This document shows positions 3,089-13,137 of a stretch of 64,000 nt of DNA, in pieces. How positions within the stretch are numbered: position 1 is the first letter of the stretch; every line of letters begins with the position of its first letter. Source of the DNA: Phycisphaerae bacterium. GTDB lineage: Bacteria; Planctomycetota; Phycisphaerae; Sedimentisphaerales; SM23-30. The position numbers and the translations under genes were made by a program. The notes beneath the pieces are model-generated. The model was not told where the DNA came from, did no database searches, and saw nothing but the letters and a program-made list of their open reading frames with translations. The stretch covers positions 1 through 64,000 of the forward strand of contig JAEIOG010000006.1 in the NCBI GenBank assembly GCA_016342495.1, read 5' to 3'.

Positions 3089-3131
3089 GCTACAGATATT
3101 TCAGACTTAAAAATTGTTCAGGAGTATTGTT

Positions 3132-3695
3132 TTGTCTAATTATCGTCGCAGTATAATGGAAGGCGGGACTTTTTTCTTTACGGTTGTTACATATAAACGG
3201 GTTAAGTTTTTGACAGATGATAATTGCCGGAAGATTTTAAAGCAAGCTCTAGCTGGTGTTGGGCAATCATGGCCATTTGCAACTCTGGCTTTTTGTTTGC
3301 TGCCGGATCATTTGCATTGTATTTGGCGTTTGCCGCCAAAGGATAGTGATTATTCAAAACGATGGTCAATAATTAAGCGGACATTTTCCAAAAATCATCT
3401 TGCAGCTGGCGGTAAGACAATTACTCAAAGTGAATCACGAATTAAAAAAAGAGAAAATAGTGTTTGGCAACGTCGTTTCTGGGAGCATCGTATTGGTAAC
3501 GATAACAATTTTTATAATCATGTTCATTATATACATTTTAATCCGGTAAAACATGGTTATGTTGAAATCCCGGCAGATTGGCCTTATTCGACATATCATC
3601 ATTTTTGCGAGAAAGGGTTATATAATAATTTTGATTGGAATTTTCTTGATGACATAGATTTTGGTGATAATATTGATTGTGAAAGGCGTGATTAA
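3132..3695 (+). CDS. REP-associated tyrosine transposase (RayT, Y1 family)
   Basis: This is a single-strand DNA nuclease of the Y1/HUH class that acts on REP hairpins and is thought to spread them. TTG at 3132 is the likely start: AGGAG lies 7 bases before it, and the product then begins MSNYRRS...GGTFFFTVV, the usual opening of RayT proteins. A TTG at 3114 would add six residues. The HUH metal site is DHLHCIW, and the probable catalytic Tyr lies in HYIHFNPVKHGYV near the C-terminus. At 187 residues it is close to the normal family length. The gene sits between perfect 36-bp inverted REP copies, the classic arrangement of a RayT unit, and appears intact. Confidence 0.92.
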   Translation: MSNYRRSIMEGGTFFFTVVTYKRVKFLTDDNCRKILKQALAGVGQSWPFATLAFCLLPDHLHCIWRLPPKDSDYSKRWSIIKRTFSKNHLAAGGKTITQSESRIKKRENSVWQRRFWEHRIGNDNNFYNHVHYIHFNPVKHGYVEIPADWPYSTYHHFCEKGLYNNFDWNFLDDIDFGDNIDCERRD

Positions 3696-3829: not shown

Positions 3830-4543
3830 ATGATTTACCCAACCTACCTGGCTTACCGCTCAAGCAAAGCTCTCCAGTTAGGTGCTAAGGGATTGCAAGC
3901 TGTTGGTAGGTCTAGAGTTGGAAGATTGGCAGGCAAAGGTTTGACCCATCTAAGTCATGCTTCTACAGCTGCCGAGATAGGCCTTGGTGGATATGGTGCT
4001 TATCAGGGATTCCAAAATGGTGATATCATGGGCGGTATAGATTCTGCCCGTATGGTTGGTGGTTCTCTCAGAGGTATAGCAGTTTCATATTTAGGCAGAG
4101 GTGCGATGACCAATCAGATGGCTGGTTTAGGCAAACGTTATGCTAAGTCAAGTAATTCTACTTTTAGGGAAAATGTTATCAAGGAAGCCAGAAGCTTGGT
4201 TGGAGCTACTCGCAAAATGAATCGTCGTGGTTATCGTTTAAGAGATATTGATTTACAATATTCTGGTAATCACGGTGTGGATATGGTATATTCAAGAGGT
4301 AATCGCTGGGCATTGTTAGAAGCCAAAGGCGGCAAGCAAACTGGTGCGATCTTTAGGCGTTCAAATCCACAAGGTGGGCCAGGTTGGTCGTCAGAAAGGT
4401 TACAGCGATATATCAATCGTGGCAATAATCAGGATTATCATGGGCTAGCTCATAGGCTTTTAGATGGGATAGATTCAAGGGATGTCAGAACTTTTGGTTA
4501 TTCTCATATTGATAATTCTTTGTGGCAATTGGGCGGTAATTAG
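3830..4543 (+). CDS. orphan polymorphic-toxin C-terminal cartridge, probable nuclease
   Basis: The 237-residue product looks like the tail of a polymorphic (Rhs/CDI-type) toxin without its delivery region. Residues 40-90 are Gly/Ala-rich (AEIGLGGYGAYQGF, GDIMGGIDSARMVGG), typical of the pre-toxin linker. Residues 140-195 hold a PD-(D/E)XK pattern: D151 in GVDMVY, E164 and K166 in ALLEAKGG, then a conserved-looking GGPGWSSERLQRYI segment. A DNase-type toxin is therefore inferred. A TAA codon lies directly before the ATG at 3830, so the frame cannot be extended upstream. The missing N-terminus may have been lost at the REP/RayT junction only 80 bp away. The probable immunity gene follows after 24 bp. 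The precise toxin family is not recognised. Confidence 0.6.
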   Translation: MIYPTYLAYRSSKALQLGAKGLQAVGRSRVGRLAGKGLTHLSHASTAAEIGLGGYGAYQGFQNGDIMGGIDSARMVGGSLRGIAVSYLGRGAMTNQMAGLGKRYAKSSNSTFRENVIKEARSLVGATRKMNRRGYRLRDIDLQYSGNHGVDMVYSRGNRWALLEAKGGKQTGAIFRRSNPQGGPGWSSERLQRYINRGNNQDYHGLAHRLLDGIDSRDVRTFGYSHIDNSLWQLGGN

Positions 4544-4567
4544 AAATAATACTTTGAAAGTTTTATT

Positions 4568-5440
4568 ATGGAAAATGAAATCTGTGATGAGCGATGGCTC
4601 GAAGAGCGTGCCATAAGAGGTTTTTCCATAGGTTATCATCAAATACCTATGGGCAAACAGAAATTGGCCTTTCAATTGGGTTTTGCACATGGATACAAAG
4701 CATTTCTCAATCGAAGTATAAATGATTGGCAGGCAGATGATATTAGGTCTATCGTTAACATGAAAGATGCTCTGGCGGTAGCAAGAGAAGTCTTGAAAAT
4801 ATCTGCAAATATTGAAGAAAAAGATTTAGTGCAAAATTTTGATTTTGTTTCGGCTCAATATCTTTGCATTTTATTGGAAGGCAATCTTGACAGAGAATTA
4901 TTTGGCATTTATGACAAAGAAACATTTGAAGGGCCATTGCCAGAGTATGTTGATATTTATACCTGGTTTCGAGCTGCGGATTATAGCATAATATCTGCTC
5001 TAGTTAAGCAAAAGGTCTCACAGCCTTTGTTGAAACGCCTTAAGGTAAAAGACAAATTATACAATTATTATATCCGAATTTACACTAAGTATTCCGAAAT
5101 AATCCAGGCCTGGCTCGAAGAAGATTGGGATGCTTGTGTGGAACATGCAAACGAAGCTGCTTTCATGGTAGATAAAATTCCCAAAAAATTGCATAGCGAA
5201 ATATTCGAGGATAGCCATTATGGCTTTACAGATAAAGTTCTCGATTACAAATTGGCAGCTATATTGAAGTATTGTTTGAGCGATAAGCCTGAAATTCTGG
5301 AAAAGATTGATATTAAACATAAATGGCCATGGTCTCAAGCTGATGTTGATAAACAATGCCCGCCACCCTTAATGGAGCGTATTGTTTCCGCTGAAGAGCT
5401 TGGATTGATAAATAATAAACCATGGTGGAAATTTTGGTAA
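4568..5440 (+). CDS. probable immunity protein for the upstream toxin
   Basis: This is a 290-residue cytosolic protein without signal or membrane segments, mostly alpha-helical by composition (for example DALAVAREVLKISANIEEKD), with an aromatic end KPWWKFW. Its position directly after the nuclease cartridge, on the same strand, is the main reason for the call. The size and all-helical character resemble the Imm49 group of immunity proteins, but that match is only by eye. The acidic character would suit binding to a basic nuclease. If the toxin has lost its delivery domain, this gene may remain as a free immunity gene against related competitors. Confidence 0.5.
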   Translation: MENEICDERWLEERAIRGFSIGYHQIPMGKQKLAFQLGFAHGYKAFLNRSINDWQADDIRSIVNMKDALAVAREVLKISANIEEKDLVQNFDFVSAQYLCILLEGNLDRELFGIYDKETFEGPLPEYVDIYTWFRAADYSIISALVKQKVSQPLLKRLKVKDKLYNYYIRIYTKYSEIIQAWLEEDWDACVEHANEAAFMVDKIPKKLHSEIFEDSHYGFTDKVLDYKLAAILKYCLSDKPEILEKIDIKHKWPWSQADVDKQCPPPLMERIVSAEELGLINNKPWWKFW

Positions 5441-5860: not shown

Positions 5861-7654
5861 TTATTTGCTGGTTGGCTTTTCGACAACTTTAATATACAAA
5901 TCTTCCAGCTGGTCGGCATCGACACCCGATGGGGCATCGGTCAACAGGCACTGGCCCTTCTGAGTTTTTGGAAAAGCGATTACGTCGCGGATATTATCCG
6001 TGCCGGTCAGTAGCATAACCAATCGGTCCAGCCCCCAGGCTAATCCGCCGTGTGGCGGTGTGCCATATTCCAGAGCATCCAAAAAGAAGCCAAAGCGTTC
6101 GCGGGCCATCTCATCGGTGATACCCAAAAGCTTAAAGACTTTTGCCTGAACCTGCGGATTATGAATACGTATCGAACCGCCAGCAATTTCATAGCCATTA
6201 AGAACAATATCATAAGCCTGACTGCGAATATTTTGTGGGTCACTGTCAAGTTTTTCAACATCTTCGGGGAATGGCGCGGTAAATGGATGGTGCAATGAAT
6301 CCCATCGGTTTTCATCTTTGTTAAATGCAAACAAGGGGAAATCAACAACCCATACAAAATTGAACTGATCTTCATTTACCAAACCCAGGTCTTCACCCAG
6401 TTTGCAACGTAAGGCCGCCAGAGATTTATGTACAATATCAGCAGAATCACCAACCATAAGAATCAAATCACCAATTTCAGCCTGGAATGTTTCCATGATC
6501 GCCGCTTGCTGTTCGGCACTGAAGAATTTAGCGATACTGGAAAACAGAACCGGTTTGCCATCTTCGCCTTCCTGCACCTTAAACCATGCCAAACCGCGAG
6601 CACCAAAATCAGCGACAAAACCGGTAAGAGTTTTTTCAATGTCACTGCGAGAATAAGTAGCTGCGCCTTTGGCACAAATACCTTTGACCATGCCGCCACC
6701 TTTGACGGTATTGGTGAAGACTTTAAAGCTGCTTTCCACTACAATCGCAGAAATATCCTTCAGCAACATTTCAAAACGAGTGTCAGGGCGGTCAATACCA
6801 TAATTTTCTACAGCATCATTATAGCTCATCCGTTGCATCGGCAACTGAATATCAATATCAAGAATATCTTTGAAAACCTTGGCAAAACATCCTTCGGTGA
6901 TGCCAATAACATCATCCATGTCAACAAAGCTCATTTCCAAATCGACCTGAGTGAATTCAGGCTGACGATCAGCTCGAAGATCTTCATCACGGAAACATTT
7001 GACTATCTGGAAATAACGATCCATTCCAGAAATCATTAAAATCTGTTTAAATAGTTGGGGCGACTGGGGCAATGCATAAAATGCACCTTCGGTCATACGC
7101 GATGGCACCAGAAAGTCACGGGCACCTTCAGGAGTACTCTTGCCGAGCATGGGCGTTTCAATTTCATAGAAACCATTTTCCTGATGATAATCACGAATTA
7201 TCTTAGCTGCCCGGTTGCGAACTCGCATGATATGCTGCATGCGATCGCGCCGCAAATCAAGATAGCGATATTTCAAACGCAATTCTTCATTGACATTGGC
7301 ATTTGAATCTACTTCAAATGGCGGGGTCTTGGCTTTATTTAAAACTTCCAGCTCACAAATATCAATTTCGATATCGCCAGTAGCCATCTTAGGATTTTCC
7401 ATGCCTTCAGCTCGGTGTCGAACCGTACCTTTAGCTGATATTACCCATTCTGTCCGTAATGTCCGGGCCAGTTCATGAGCTTTTGGATGAGCTTCAGGAT
7501 TAAATACTAACTGAGTCAGACCTTCGCGGTCACGTAAATCGATAAAAACCAGTCCGCCATGGTCGCGATATGAGCGAACCCAGCCAGACAGGGTTACTTC
7601 TTTGCCTTCATCAGCGGCACGAAGTTGGCCGCAATTGTTTGTTCTTTTTAACAT
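5861..7654 (-). CDS. aspS: aspartyl-tRNA synthetase
   Basis: This enzyme charges tRNA-Asp with aspartate in the cytosol. The 597 residues match the bacterial-type enzyme throughout. An OB-fold anticodon-binding domain spans about 1-105 (GWVRSYRDHGGLVFIDLRDR). The class II core carries motif 2 (FRDEDLRADRQPEFTQVDLE) and motif 3 (GLAWGLDRLVMLLTGTDNIR), with a GAD-type insertion between them around 290-420. The ATG at 7654 has AGGA upstream. It is monocistronic, divergent from the glycosyltransferase fusion gene. Whether it is specific for tRNA-Asp or also charges tRNA-Asn cannot be read from the sequence alone. Confidence 0.97.
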   Translation of the reverse strand: MLKRTNNCGQLRAADEGKEVTLSGWVRSYRDHGGLVFIDLRDREGLTQLVFNPEAHPKAHELARTLRTEWVISAKGTVRHRAEGMENPKMATGDIEIDICELEVLNKAKTPPFEVDSNANVNEELRLKYRYLDLRRDRMQHIMRVRNRAAKIIRDYHQENGFYEIETPMLGKSTPEGARDFLVPSRMTEGAFYALPQSPQLFKQILMISGMDRYFQIVKCFRDEDLRADRQPEFTQVDLEMSFVDMDDVIGITEGCFAKVFKDILDIDIQLPMQRMSYNDAVENYGIDRPDTRFEMLLKDISAIVVESSFKVFTNTVKGGGMVKGICAKGAATYSRSDIEKTLTGFVADFGARGLAWFKVQEGEDGKPVLFSSIAKFFSAEQQAAIMETFQAEIGDLILMVGDSADIVHKSLAALRCKLGEDLGLVNEDQFNFVWVVDFPLFAFNKDENRWDSLHHPFTAPFPEDVEKLDSDPQNIRSQAYDIVLNGYEIAGGSIRIHNPQVQAKVFKLLGITDEMARERFGFFLDALEYGTPPHGGLAWGLDRLVMLLTGTDNIRDVIAFPKTQKGQCLLTDAPSGVDADQLEDLYIKVVEKPTSK

Positions 7655-7921: not shown

Positions 7922-9835
7922 ATGAAAGCTGGCATAAATAAAAATATAAATGAACCAGGCTTGGTTTTGGCTCAGCGTACTGTTGGGACCCAGCGATTTT
8001 ACTATCGTAAGCGTGAAGAACAGCTGCTTTTCGATAGAGAAATTGAGTGGTTTTCGCGTGAAAACCTGCAAAAAAAGGGAAAAATCGACCCTAAACTGCC
8101 TTTTGCCGCCCGAAAAATAACGGTTCAGGGACAGGATTTATACGTAAAAACATATCTGGTTAGCAGGTTTATGGGCTGTCCAGCAGAGAAGGCTTTTAAG
8201 AATCTACTAGTAGCCAACAAACGCGGGGTACCAGTGCCAGAGCCAATCGCCTGGGCCAAAGGGAAAATTGATGGCTATAATACCTGCATTCTAATTACTA
8301 AATCAGTAGGCAAAATCACTTCACTTTCAGAATTAATCTGGCAAAATGAGGTATTAACTGAGCGCAAGACAGAAGATATATTAAATGCCGCGGGCCGTTT
8401 ATTAGGTTTACTGCATGTTGCAGGCATTGTTCACAATAATTTAAGCTTTGGCAAAATTTTTGTAAGTGAGCCGATCCAGCGAAGTTCGGAGAGCTATCTG
8501 CTTGATTTACAAAGAGTTAGCATCTCTAATAAAAAAGATTCCAAGTTTGCCGCTATTTATGATGATAAGCTGTTGGCTAATATGGCGGTGATAGCTGGCG
8601 GTTTGGAAAATTGGCTTGATCCTAAATATCTGCGGATTTTAGTCAAAAGCTATCTGGAGGTGATTGAACCATTTAAGATGTGGACAGAAAATGAAGTCGA
8701 CCAATATCTTAAAGAGCTAAAGCCATTGATTGCTCATCGAAATACCCAATTATCTTTCGATAAAATCCAGAAACAGGACTTTCGCAATATTTTAATCATA
8801 AAGCCCAGCAGCCTAGGTGACGTAGTTCGAACTGTACCAATTTTAAGTGGTTTGCGAAAAAAATACCCGAAAGCAAAGATAAGTTGGCTGGTAAGACCTG
8901 AATTTAAGGCTATTATAGATGACAATCCAGACCTGGATGAAATAATAGTTTTTGATCGCAAGTTTTATGGTAAAATAGGGCGTAGCTGGCAGGCAACGGT
9001 GAAATTTGTTAAATTTTTAGCCCAACTTAAGCAAAAGCAATTTGACCTGGTTTTGGATATTCAAGGCTTGTTTCGCAGCGGTTTTATGGCCAAAAGGACA
9101 GGGGCCAGAGTGCGGGTGGGCTTTAGTCATGCACGCGAATTGGCCCATATATTTTATACACATAAAATTGTAGCACCGAAAGATCAACATGCGGTGCTGG
9201 ACTATTGGCGATTTGCTGAAATATTAGGTTTTGGCGAGAGTGAAATGGAATTCAAGCTGCCCATAAGTGATGAATTGAAAAAGACTTGTGAATCCAAGCT
9301 AAAAGAAAATGGGCTTGAGGATTCTGATTATGTGGTTTTATTGCCGGGTGGGACGGTACAGGCAAAAAGATGGTCAACAGAAAAATTCGCAAAGCTTGCT
9401 GAGCAGATAGTAAAATGCTATGATAATATGAATATTGGAATAGTAATGCTAGGGGTCGGGGCGACTGAAAAAGCATTGGCAAAAGAAATATGTCACAAGA
9501 GTCAGTGCAAAATAGTAGATATGATTGATAAAACAAGCCTGAAAGAAATGACAGGTATACTACATGGAGCTATAATAGCAATAGGAAATGATTCTGGGCC
9601 ATTGCATATATCAGCGGCGATGTCGGTAGCGACGATAGGCATTTATGGGCCGACGAACCCGGAAGTTGTAGGGCCCTGGGGGCAGATGGACAATGTTGTG
9701 ATGGCCGGGGCCAAAGGGCCGCGTAAGAAAAGATATAGCAAAGCTGCCGAGCATAATATTGAAAATGTCAGCGTTGATGATGTAATGGAAAAACTTAAAG
9801 GCATAAGGCAAAAGGCACAAGGCACAAGCTTATAA
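7922..9835 (+). CDS. WaaP/Kdo-kinase-like pseudokinase fused to GT9 glycosyltransferase
   Basis: This 637-residue fusion has no signal or membrane segment and probably acts at the inner face of the membrane in LPS core assembly. Residues 60-270 resemble the WaaP/KdkA lipopolysaccharide kinase fold: a beta-3 Lys in DLYVKTY (K76) and LLDLQRVS at the DFG position. The catalytic loop reads HNNLSFGKIF, with Asn173 where Asp is expected and Lys178 where the metal-binding Asn is expected, so activity is doubtful. Residues 288-630 are a GT9 heptosyltransferase-like unit: KPSSLGDVVRTVPIL, LDIQGLFRSG, LLPGGTVQAKRWSTEKFA and GNDSGPLHISAAM. The fusion links core-sugar transfer with a kinase-like domain. 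The gene overlaps the next start by one base (TAATG), which implies coupled translation. The ATG at 7922 has no strong ribosome site. Confidence 0.85.
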   Translation: MKAGINKNINEPGLVLAQRTVGTQRFYYRKREEQLLFDREIEWFSRENLQKKGKIDPKLPFAARKITVQGQDLYVKTYLVSRFMGCPAEKAFKNLLVANKRGVPVPEPIAWAKGKIDGYNTCILITKSVGKITSLSELIWQNEVLTERKTEDILNAAGRLLGLLHVAGIVHNNLSFGKIFVSEPIQRSSESYLLDLQRVSISNKKDSKFAAIYDDKLLANMAVIAGGLENWLDPKYLRILVKSYLEVIEPFKMWTENEVDQYLKELKPLIAHRNTQLSFDKIQKQDFRNILIIKPSSLGDVVRTVPILSGLRKKYPKAKISWLVRPEFKAIIDDNPDLDEIIVFDRKFYGKIGRSWQATVKFVKFLAQLKQKQFDLVLDIQGLFRSGFMAKRTGARVRVGFSHARELAHIFYTHKIVAPKDQHAVLDYWRFAEILGFGESEMEFKLPISDELKKTCESKLKENGLEDSDYVVLLPGGTVQAKRWSTEKFAKLAEQIVKCYDNMNIGIVMLGVGATEKALAKEICHKSQCKIVDMIDKTSLKEMTGILHGAIIAIGNDSGPLHISAAMSVATIGIYGPTNPEVVGPWGQMDNVVMAGAKGPRKKRYSKAAEHNIENVSVDDVMEKLKGIRQKAQGTSL

Positions 9836-10434
9836 TGAGCCCAATAAGAAGCACAAAAAAACGCATAATAAGATTTGTAGTGCATAATATACTACATATC
9901 GACGATACGCCACATCGTTTGGCTTTGGGCGTTGGTGTTGCTTTTTTTATTGCCTGGACACCCACGATAGGATTTCAGATGGCTTTGGTGTTATTACTGG
10001 CACCACTATTTAAGGCTAATGCACGCGTTGGATTGCCTTTGGTGTGGATATCAAATCCTGTGACAGCGGCATTTATATATTATCCAAATTATCGGGTAGG
10101 TAAATATATTTTGGAGAAATTTGGTTATGTATCCAGTACAGAAATAAACTTTAAGAGTATAACCGAGATATTGACTTTGCCAACGAGTGAGGGTGGGGTG
10201 TTTTCACAGATATTCAATATGGAATATTGGCAGGGTATAGTAAGTTTTTTAGCTAAAATTGGGTTGGAGCTTTGGGCTGGCAGTATTATCATTGGGATTA
10301 TTCTGGGGGTAATAATGTATTTTGTCAGCTACAAAACAATTTTGTGGTATCGGGCACACACGCCACACTGGGCGCGAGTGGGCAAGATTCTGCATTTGAA
10401 GAAAAAGGAGCATCAAGCCAATGAAAAAAGTTGA
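9835..10434 (+). CDS. DUF2062 integral membrane protein
   Basis: This is a 199-residue protein of the DUF2062 family. The hallmark segment is GVGVAFFIAWTPTIGFQMAL followed by WISNPVTAAFIYYPNYRVGK, with three or four hydrophobic helices and a basic C-terminus. The biochemical role of the family is unsettled; members often lie beside glycosyltransferases. Its start overlaps the fusion gene by one base, and its end overlaps the radical SAM gene by 14 bases. The three genes are therefore almost certainly one transcript, which supports a link to envelope glycolipid synthesis or transport. Confidence 0.85.
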   Translation: MSPIRSTKKRIIRFVVHNILHIDDTPHRLALGVGVAFFIAWTPTIGFQMALVLLLAPLFKANARVGLPLVWISNPVTAAFIYYPNYRVGKYILEKFGYVSSTEINFKSITEILTLPTSEGGVFSQIFNMEYWQGIVSFLAKIGLELWAGSIIIGIILGVIMYFVSYKTILWYRAHTPHWARVGKILHLKKKEHQANEKS

Positions 10435-11947
10435 GCAAAATGATTCTATTTTTTCTCAAACAGAAGCTCTGGCAGATGAACACTGGCTGGAGAGATGGCT
10501 GTCTAAGGGCTGGGTTCGTAAAATTCTGGGTACATTGAGTAAAGACCGCCCTGGAGGTATTGGCTCGCATCTGGAACGGGCATTACAAAGCTATGGCAAT
10601 AAAAATGCACCGCAACGAGATAAATTTTTGTATTGGCCCATTCACAAAATAATGGAGCGAATCAAAACCGATGTTAATAATCCTGAAATCGCAAGTCAGA
10701 TATCAGAGCATCAGTGGGCGTCAAGGTCTATAATCGCTTTTGCCCGAAGTATAAACCGTTATGGTTTGACGGTGCCTCAGAGTTGGAGTGGGCCATTATT
10801 TTTATATTGGGATTTTACGACCAAATGTAATTTAAAGTGCGGGCATTGTTATCGCAAAGACCGTCAAGATATAGAAGATGAGCTGGACCTTAAGCAGAAA
10901 TTTCAGTTGATAGACCAGTTTGCCGCCAACTATGGGATAATGGTGATTTTCGGGGGTGGAGAGCCAACCTTGAGCAATGAGCTGGAAAGCTGTATCCAGC
11001 ATTGCAAAGAAAAAGGGCTATATACATCACTGCACAGTCATGGCGGATTTTTAAGCACAGAGCGATGTGAAAAACTCAAACAATCAGGATTAGATTATAT
11101 TGAAGTGTCGATTGAATCGGCCAACGAAGAATATACTGACAAATATCGAGGCGTTAGCGGCTCATGGGGTAAAAGTATAGATGGTATCCGTAACGGCATA
11201 GCAAGCGGTCTGAATGTTGGGATGTCGATGTGCGTGAGACAGGATAATCTTGCCGAAGTCAAAGCGACTTTGCAACTGGCCCAGCAAGAAGGTGTGTGTC
11301 AATTTACCCATATTAATTTTGTACCGGCAGGTCAAAGCAAAGAGCAAATGCAGATTGACCTAAGTCCAATTCAACGCAAAGAGTTGATGGAATTATTAGC
11401 TGAATATCGTAACAAAGGCAATATGGGGATTGCCAGTACCGCCCCGCAATATGGTATTCATTGCGCGGACAGTTTGTCATTTTGTGGGCATAGTTTTAGA
11501 TTGGAAGAAAAGTTAAGCAGGGTAATAGGAAAATACCTGGGAGGCTGCACAGCAGGGCGAACTTCGATTTGTGTTGGCCCTGGCGGGGATGTGACACCTT
11601 GTGTATTTATGCCTGAAAGAATAATGGGCAATATAAAAGAATCGAAACTGATAGAAATATTCCAGACCAATCCTTGGCGCGATTTGCTAAGTGAAAGAAG
11701 TGAACGGCAGGGCAATTGCGGCAGCTGTAAAGATAGATATTATTGCGGTGGATGCCGAGCACGAGCGCAAAATTATTTGAACAGGATGGATCATTCCGAC
11801 CCGGGTTGCATCTTAAATCAAAAACTTTGGAGCCAACTGCACGGAAGCAATGGTCAGGCTACGACAATGCAGGTTGACCAGCAGAAAGAATTATTGAGCA
11901 ATTTTGATACCCCTTCGGTTAGAGGGCGTAATATAGGTAAAAGTTAA
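10421..11947 (+). CDS. radical SAM/SPASM enzyme
   Basis: This 508-residue iron-sulfur enzyme starts at the ATG at 10421, with AAGGAG upstream inside the previous gene. The first 120 residues form an uncharacterised helical region. The radical SAM core has the CX3CX2C cluster motif CNLKCGHC (C136, C140, C143) and the SAM-binding GGGEPT at 178-183. A SPASM-type C-terminus offers C376, C384, C394, C433, C436, C442, C445 and C463 for auxiliary clusters (CGSCKDRYYCGGCRARA). Layout and length resemble the AhbD/NirJ group of heme-related enzymes and also peptide-modifying SPASM proteins. No precursor peptide is visible next to it. Tight coupling to the DUF2062 and GT9 genes suggests a cell-envelope substrate, but that is inference. 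Confidence 0.85.
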   Translation: MKKVEQNDSIFSQTEALADEHWLERWLSKGWVRKILGTLSKDRPGGIGSHLERALQSYGNKNAPQRDKFLYWPIHKIMERIKTDVNNPEIASQISEHQWASRSIIAFARSINRYGLTVPQSWSGPLFLYWDFTTKCNLKCGHCYRKDRQDIEDELDLKQKFQLIDQFAANYGIMVIFGGGEPTLSNELESCIQHCKEKGLYTSLHSHGGFLSTERCEKLKQSGLDYIEVSIESANEEYTDKYRGVSGSWGKSIDGIRNGIASGLNVGMSMCVRQDNLAEVKATLQLAQQEGVCQFTHINFVPAGQSKEQMQIDLSPIQRKELMELLAEYRNKGNMGIASTAPQYGIHCADSLSFCGHSFRLEEKLSRVIGKYLGGCTAGRTSICVGPGGDVTPCVFMPERIMGNIKESKLIEIFQTNPWRDLLSERSERQGNCGSCKDRYYCGGCRARAQNYLNRMDHSDPGCILNQKLWSQLHGSNGQATTMQVDQQKELLSNFDTPSVRGRNIGKS

Positions 11948-12621: not shown

Positions 12622-13137
12622 TTGGTGCGTAAGCTCTGGTGCTTTTGGCAGGGTTCTGCCTGCTTAGTTCATATTGGTTTGAATTTGGAAATAAAAGAAA
12701 AAAAACGTATAGGTATTGTTTTCATATTAATTAATTTAATAGTGGCAATGCTAGCATTTGGCTTGTTGGCGACAGCCTGGAAGGTCAATCCCAATGTAAA
12801 AGGATTTGGGACGCATCGTCAATTGGATATGCCATCGTGCGGTTTTCTGGAACGGACAGGTTATCCATGCCCGACATGTGGGATGACAACGGCATTTTCG
12901 CATACCGTTCGATTAGAATTATTTCAGGCGGCTAAGGTTCAGCCAACAGGAATGTTGTTGGCATTGGCATGTATGGCAATCTTTCCATTTTGTTTATGGC
13001 AAGGTTTGTCAGGAAGGCCCGTAGAAAAAGTGATGGCATGGCTGAATTTTAATGCTGTGAAGATATTGTGGGGGTGGGCAATTTTGTTTTTGGCAGCGTG
13101 GGGCTATAAGGCTTTGACAGTTAGGATGTTTGGTTAA
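12622..13137 (+). CDS. DUF2752 membrane protein
   Basis: This is a small inner-membrane protein. The family mark is SCGFLERTGYPCPTCGMTTAF around residues 70-90, with the paired cysteines (CPTCG) and a following amphipathic stretch. Hydrophobic helices lie before it (IGIVFILINLIVAMLAFGLL) and after it (two more). The longest frame opens with TTG at 12622, directly beside the repeat, and its first 20 residues look non-native. A TTG at 12685 is a more natural start, though neither has a clear ribosome site. The function of DUF2752 is not established; the cysteines suggest redox or metal chemistry. It opens the stretch leading to the two lipoproteins. Confidence 0.75.
   Translation: MVRKLWCFWQGSACLVHIGLNLEIKEKKRIGIVFILINLIVAMLAFGLLATAWKVNPNVKGFGTHRQLDMPSCGFLERTGYPCPTCGMTTAFSHTVRLELFQAAKVQPTGMLLALACMAIFPFCLWQGLSGRPVEKVMAWLNFNAVKILWGWAILFLAAWGYKALTVRMFG

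Follow-up and report, generated by a model that had tools for sequence, protein, structure and literature searches.

A pseudokinase-glycosyltransferase operon in a Phycisphaerae genome carries a divergent radical SAM/SPASM enzyme from a Tes-linked family

Introduction

At positions 7922 to 11947 of a 64,000-nucleotide stretch of a Phycisphaerae bacterium (contig JAEIOG010000006.1, assembly GCA_016342495.1; hereafter, the window), a radical SAM/SPASM enzyme is encoded in overlap with a DUF2062 membrane protein and behind a WaaP-like kinase domain fused to a GT9 glycosyltransferase. What would such an enzyme act on, and what does it mean that the kinase beside it lacks its catalytic aspartate? 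We give a probability of about 0.5 to the reading that this is a decayed and partly repurposed operon, in which a pseudokinase-GT9 protein stands beside a radical SAM enzyme of the GMGT synthase (Gms) type that has been redirected to another membrane lipid. The genes concerned are the following.

7922 to 9835, plus strand: kinase-GT9 fusion gene, 637 amino acids (aa), with Pfam Kdo kinase at residues 90-200 and Glyco_transf_9 at residues 364-604
9835 to 10434, plus strand: DUF2062 membrane protein gene, 199 aa
10421 to 11947, plus strand: radical SAM/SPASM gene, 508 aa, of a Gms-like family associated with the tetraether lipid synthase Tes

Bacterial branched tetraethers are widely used palaeotemperature markers. 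To our knowledge, how bacteria make them has yet to be settled, and the Gms homologues of bacteria have been assigned by homology only. Taken as a tetraether marker wherever it occurs, such a radical SAM homologue would lead an annotation astray in the organism described here.

The kinase domain has lost its catalytic aspartate

Pfam recognized the kinase half of the fusion protein as a Kdo kinase (PF06293; 49.5 bits against a cut-off of 21.3). Its nearest solved structure by both sequence profile and fold was WaaP 6dfl (fold rank 1, E 1.2e-10), in a kinase model of pLDDT 71.8 that rests on eight sequences and whose core is better than residues 11-59, which are poor. The domains and residues of interest are these.

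8099 to 8746, plus strand: WaaP-like pseudokinase domain, about residues 60-275, orthologous by alignment to the kinase domain K1 of relatives
8432 to 8455, plus strand: catalytic loop HNNLSFGK, residues 171-178, with N173 at the catalytic Asp and K178 at the metal Asn
8504 to 8506, plus strand: Asp195, the DFG-equivalent, kept in the family alignment
8786 to 9799, plus strand: GT9 (heptosyltransferase-type) domain, residues 289-626, with profile matches and a normal evolutionary rate

When the domain was aligned with the kinase domains of relatives, N173 fell where every aligned relative has the catalytic Asp and K178 where each has the metal-binding Asn, and the N-lobe Lys (VKTY) and Asp195 proved to be retained. 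The catalytic Asp is kept in all 43 readable kinase domains from 36 GT9-linked genomes, and no further Asp lies between H171 and D195 that could represent a different residue in the catalytic site. A first-pass annotation of the window had called the kinase dead on the strength of both loop substitutions and had proposed alignment with WaaP as a check; the alignment bears out the substitutions but not their equal weight. Since WaaP itself has His at the metal Asn position (HRDCYICH), little weight can be put on the Asn-to-Lys change; the strong evidence is the replacement of Asp by Asn. Judged from its sequence, the domain is most likely a pseudokinase that can no longer phosphorylate.

The window's genome belongs to a family of 13 genomes (f1; relatives are numbered G001 and so on), whose named matches are metagenome-assembled genomes (MAGs) mostly titled Sedimentisphaerales; all genomes compared here are draft assemblies. 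Within f1 the kinase is usually a tandem of two domains, K1 and K2, and in these tandem proteins both domains carry HxDxxxxN (in K2 of G006, F replaces H, with Asp and Asn kept). The window has a single K1-type domain, which shares 23-28% identity with the other K1 domains and is joined directly to GT9. Sequencing error was rejected as the source of the altered loop, as 18 of 37 positions invariant in the other K1 domains differ in the window. A replacement K1-K2 protein elsewhere in the genome was likewise rejected, the search having returned weak matches only, to a multi-kinase protein of another kind on contig C79. That protein (G000, L069:12134-14494, minus strand) has 786 aa and about three WaaP/RIO-like kinase segments with the loops QDDLHLGN, HGDLKATN, and HIDISPSN; next to it are a glycosyltransferase and a WaaP kinase containing HRDFYICH. 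A scan of the genome collection with the kinase-GT9 fusion protein as query gave no match, and the literature on WaaP pseudokinases and on DUF2062 with lipopolysaccharide (LPS) yielded nothing useful.

The glycosyltransferase and DUF2062 belong to a common neighbourhood

The GT9 half, described at first pass as keeping its motifs, is indeed intact: its match (PF01075; 154.2 bits against a cut-off of 22) spans the whole family profile. It fell under the equivalog cut-offs for heptosyltransferases I, II, and III, with 175.6 bits against 185.3 for heptosyltransferase I (TIGR02193). The DUF2062 protein (PF09835) scored 116.7 bits against a cut-off of 27.4. GT9 relatives occur in nearly every genome of the order. 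A kinase lies beside or fused to GT9 in 36 of the 78 sampled genomes or loci (fused in 10), DUF2062 comes next in 18 of those 36, and GT9-DUF2062 pairs without a kinase occur in many other genomes. Kinase-GT9-DUF2062 is thus an ordinary neighbourhood in the order, from which the window departs by its dead kinase.

Only in family f1 does the row extend to the radical SAM gene, and there the usual order is two intact kinase domains (K1-K2), GT9, DUF2062, and the radical SAM enzyme. A full orthologue of the enzyme is present in 9 of the 13 f1 genomes, counting the window's; the row is contiguous through this gene in G001, G005, G007, and G011, and DUF2062 and the enzyme share one contig in G012. 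In G008 (L105:2139-4250), DUF2062 and the radical SAM/SPASM enzyme are fused into a single protein of 703 aa that is probably membrane-anchored. The overlaps given by the first-pass annotation are exact to the base: base 9835 is common to the GT9 stop codon and the DUF2062 ATG, and the DUF2062 and radical SAM reading frames share 14 bases (10421-10434). Nor are such overlaps unique to the window genome, as that annotation's proposed survey might have found, for in G007 GT9/DUF2062 and DUF2062/radical SAM overlap by 1 and 4 bases and in G001 the latter pair overlaps by 1 base. Because of the fusion in G008 and these overlaps, we suggest that DUF2062 and the radical SAM enzyme act together at the membrane. 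A divergently oriented aspartyl-tRNA synthetase gene lies upstream (5861 to 7654, minus strand); the same neighbour adjoins the locus in G005, which supports orthology of the two loci. In several relatives an S41 peptidase gene follows the radical SAM gene or DUF2062, and this gene is missing in the window.

The radical SAM/SPASM enzyme comes from a family tied to Tes

In the third protein, Pfam found Radical_SAM (83.5 bits) and SPASM (40.1 bits), and an AlphaFold2 model (pLDDT 85.4) placed N-terminal helices, radical SAM barrel, bridge, and SPASM domain in that order.

10460 to 10762, plus strand: N-terminal helical domain, residues 14-114 (AlphaFold2 model, pLDDT mostly above 90)
10826 to 10849, plus strand: CX3CX2C radical SAM cluster motif, C136/C140/C143 (sequence and alignment)
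11447 to 11548, plus strand: bridging/hairpin stretch, residues 343-376, heavily rewritten
11546 to 11809, plus strand: SPASM domain, residues 376-463, with auxiliary cysteines C376, C394, C433, C436, C442, C445, and C463 all present

Published Gms (METOK_RS04425, WP_062369926.1), which cross-links lipid chains, consists of an N-terminal helical domain, a radical SAM barrel, a hairpin-bearing bridge, and a SPASM domain with two auxiliary clusters (PMC11186832). The top fold match of our model was SuiB 5v1t, the structure that served to place the clusters in the published Gms model (PMC11186832); PqqE was also among the best folds. Gms homologues have been reported from anaerobic archaea and Planctomycetota (PMC11186832), and from 90 of 684 Planctomycetota MAGs of the Black Sea (PMC11868695). 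The cysteines C123/C127/C370/C438 of METOK Gms are spaced +4, +247, and +315, with a further auxiliary cysteine, C372, at +249 (PMC11186832). In most rows checked, the family of the window enzyme has spacings of +4, +245-249, and +313-316, matching four of the five named METOK cysteines; the window enzyme is 6-7 residues shorter in this comparison, with all conserved cysteines present. Compared with Gms through its published description, the family looks like the GMGT synthase branch.

Outside f1, MAGs of Phycisphaerae, other planctomycetes, and Actinomycetota carry homologues of the enzyme with about 35-42% identity. A BLASTP criterion for Gms is E < 1e-50 with > 30% identity to a characterised Gms. 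Among the archaeal homologues compared, the closest are about 28-33% identical to the window enzyme; archaeal homologues are 40-44% identical to bacterial members of the Tes-linked family, the latter level suggesting gene exchange between the domains. The archaeal homologues (L146, L149, L152, and L153) come from Hydrothermarchaeum, Archaeoglobus, Thermoplasmata, and others. Viral contigs that we scanned held no relative of the window enzyme.

At the loci examined outside f1, no homologue stood near GT9 or DUF2062. Instead, a recurrent cluster has the order F7-F2-F1-F4-radical SAM, in which F1 is Tes by NCBIfam (484.6 and 474.2 bits against a cut-off of 450) and F7 combines two BadF-type ATPase domains with DUF2229. 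A Tes-type partner was found in 27 of the 43 non-f1 loci examined, and orthologues in the class and in Actinomycetota adjoin Tes and Ger/PlsA-like ether-lipid genes. Across 397 genomes of the class, the radical SAM gene was present in 67, Tes in 72, both in 63, and neither in 321 (Fisher p 4e-58, with relatedness uncorrected and 7 of the 63 resting on partial Tes matches); the two genes lie on one contig in 37 genomes. This is strong, independent linkage evidence, from Phycisphaerae as well as Actinomycetota, that ties the enzyme family to Tes and Ger-like genes.

Tes and Ger-like genes are gone, and the enzyme has been rewritten

A profile search of the window genome assembly found no Tes, and no Ger-like gene was found in that assembly either. 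In G001 and G005, Tes-Ger precede Maf, DUF192, and a SpoIIE-type gene. The window genome also has Maf, DUF192, and SpoIIE grouped, at a mid-contig position on C122, but the place expected for Tes-Ger is occupied by other genes. With these flanking genes contiguous mid-contig, a simple assembly gap was rejected as the cause of the absence. In two less complete assemblies, G002 and G009, Tes was not found, Ger-like genes are present, and the radical SAM enzyme is conserved.

The window enzyme, by contrast, is altered at 36 of 137 family positions that are at least 97% conserved, against 5 of 133 in the next worst row and a median below 1%. Of 56 sites shared with the archaeal set, it has lost 10, and four control rows have lost none; yet it keeps all 11 conserved cysteines. 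Where Gms has its substrate hairpin, the window enzyme has a stretch of 33 residues, against 38 or more in each of the 39 other bacterial rows. The bridge is the region most densely changed (nominal p 0.02), and the SPASM domain the least (nominal p 0.03). In the enzyme tree, the window enzyme lies inside the family clade (support 100/99) on an end branch of 2.46, where the median in the clade is 0.29, and about 2.5 substitutions per site have brought neither a stop nor a frameshift.

This acceleration is confined to part of the operon. The identity of the window's proteins to those of relatives, set against that among the relatives, is 45% against 65% for the radical SAM enzyme and 25% against 35% for K1, compared with 47% against 48% for GT9 and 45% against 47% for DUF2062. 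The radical SAM enzyme and K1 are thus accelerated and are the most altered parts, and GT9 and DUF2062 have evolved at a normal rate. One genome without Tes-Ger, whose enzyme is rewritten at otherwise fixed positions, provides a natural contrast, and the rewritten positions are direct candidates for substrate recognition.

Discussion

From the sequence changes, the gene order, the Tes linkage, the absence of Tes-Ger at the syntenic site, and the rate acceleration, we infer every activity, and the new substrate, as follows. The ancestral operon of one Sedimentisphaerales-type family would have encoded K1-K2 kinases, GT9, DUF2062, and a Gms-like radical SAM/SPASM enzyme. K2 would then have been lost, leaving K1 as a relic of the two-kinase ancestor, fused to GT9 as a pseudokinase that perhaps acts as a scaffold or binds the acceptor. 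Most likely, GT9 and DUF2062 have kept their part in assembling an envelope glycolipid of LPS-core-like type. The radical SAM enzyme probably descends from a Tes-linked, GMGT synthase-like, lipid-modifying enzyme; left without Tes/Ger-like partners, it would keep its radical and auxiliary clusters while its substrate pocket was remodelled and its tetraether-specific surface lost. Its most likely task would be radical C-H/C-C chemistry on the acyl chains of an ordinary membrane lipid rather than on a tetraether. A bolder option for its substrate is the product of GT9 or the acyl chains of lipid A, the latter possible because LpxC and WaaA are present in the host genome. We hold only tentatively the more specific proposal that an enzyme of the tetraether branch was recruited, after the loss of Tes/Ger, for a new C-C/C-H modification of ordinary glycerolipids or of the operon's lipid A/core glycolipid, with the pseudokinase-GT9 protein replacing two active kinases.

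Several points weigh against a repurposed Gms-type enzyme. Membership in the Gms branch rests on architecture, distribution, and Tes linkage, and the auxiliary-cluster cysteine C372 of METOK has no counterpart column in the family, which has Ala there. The long branch makes the exact place of the window enzyme within the family clade unsure, and the excess of changes in the bridge is nominally significant with four regions tested. With no relative from its own genus to compare, adaptive change and relaxed constraint cannot be told apart. Finally, the window genome is 95% complete.

Among the alternatives, we consider it unlikely that the enzyme is dedicated to the assembly of LPS core or lipid A, acting there on the glycolipid elongated by GT9. 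LpxC and WaaA make an LPS context plausible, the overlaps and gene order are conserved in f1, G008 has DUF2062 fused to the enzyme, and with Tes gone the enzyme of the window genome has no partners but those of its operon. At the loci compared outside f1, however, the enzyme keeps company with Tes and not with GT9/DUF2062, and G006 has kinase-GT9-DUF2062 without it. The first-pass suggestion that a radical SAM step is linked to LPS-core assembly holds as regards the gene row of several relatives, but is doubtful as a description of the enzyme, whose orthologues elsewhere sit with Tes/Ger.

That the enzyme is still a cross-linker of the GMGT synthase type, fed with membrane-spanning lipids from another route (such as the published synthase Mss) or by a Tes missing from the assembly, seems to us rather unlikely. 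Every Fe-S cysteine is kept, the genome has other radical SAM genes, and 5% of it may be missing; but Tes/Ger are gone both from the syntenic site, with its flanks intact, and from the rest of the assembly, and the altered conserved positions include sites shared with the archaeal set.

Relaxed selection, by which the enzyme and the kinase would be functionless leftovers of tetraether loss kept in frame by the operon, we judge distinctly unlikely, even though the losses of K2, the K1 catalytic Asp, Tes, and Ger coincide and only GT9 and DUF2062 evolve at normal rates. So many substitutions without a stop, a frameshift, or the loss of a cluster ligand would be unexpected of neutral decay, and the SPASM sites change least; for the former reason a new membrane-lipid substrate is the likelier explanation. 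An identity as a haem-pathway (AhbD/NirJ-like) or peptide-maturing enzyme, brought up by the top NCBIfam matches (NirJ2 and AhbD) and top folds (SuiB and PqqE), was rejected as very improbable, the AhbD/NirJ2 scores of 182.5 and 159.9 bits lying far under the cut-off of 500, the matches beginning at residue 129 and leaving the N-terminal helical domain uncovered, and the family being linked to Tes.

Other features of the window

Upstream of the operon, a look-alike of a REP-associated tyrosine transposase (judged by eye) lies at 3114-3695. The interval 3830-5440 encodes a 237-aa protein with a C-terminal tail resembling a polymorphic-toxin nuclease; the 290-aa protein encoded next matches no Pfam family and could be the corresponding immunity protein. 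Downstream, at 12622-13137, a DUF2752 (CPxCG) protein comes after a 4HBT thioesterase. The peptide MGIAHPT is encoded at the start regions of two separate open reading frames, at about 43900 and 46000, which suggests that a short repeat interspersed in the DNA has been taken into the called starts by read-through.

Comparison with known systems

The kinase domain shares with the heptose kinase WaaP/RfaP (6dfl; PF06293) its domain family, fold, N-lobe Lys, and DFG-equivalent Asp, and differs in having Asn for the catalytic Asp and in its fusion to GT9. The tandem K1-K2 kinase-GT9 proteins of G005 (957 aa) and G008 (997 aa) belong to the same gene family and have the same GT9 and K1, but carry two kinase domains with the catalytic Asp where the window has one dead K1. 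With the heptosyltransferases WaaC/WaaF/WaaQ, the fusion protein has in common a GT9 domain over the whole family profile. Tes is, like the window enzyme, a member of the radical SAM superfamily, and elsewhere it is the genomic partner of the enzyme's family; that the window enzyme might itself be Tes (NF045702) was rejected at 32.3 bits against an equivalog cut-off of 450. The window enzyme resembles Gms in its N-terminal helical cap, CX3CX2C barrel, bridge, and SPASM domain, in a length above 420 aa, and in coming from a Tes-linked family; its auxiliary cysteines are those conserved in that family. It differs from Gms in standing in a genome without Tes, in its altered family-conserved residues and shorter hairpin, and in adjoining GT9 and DUF2062.

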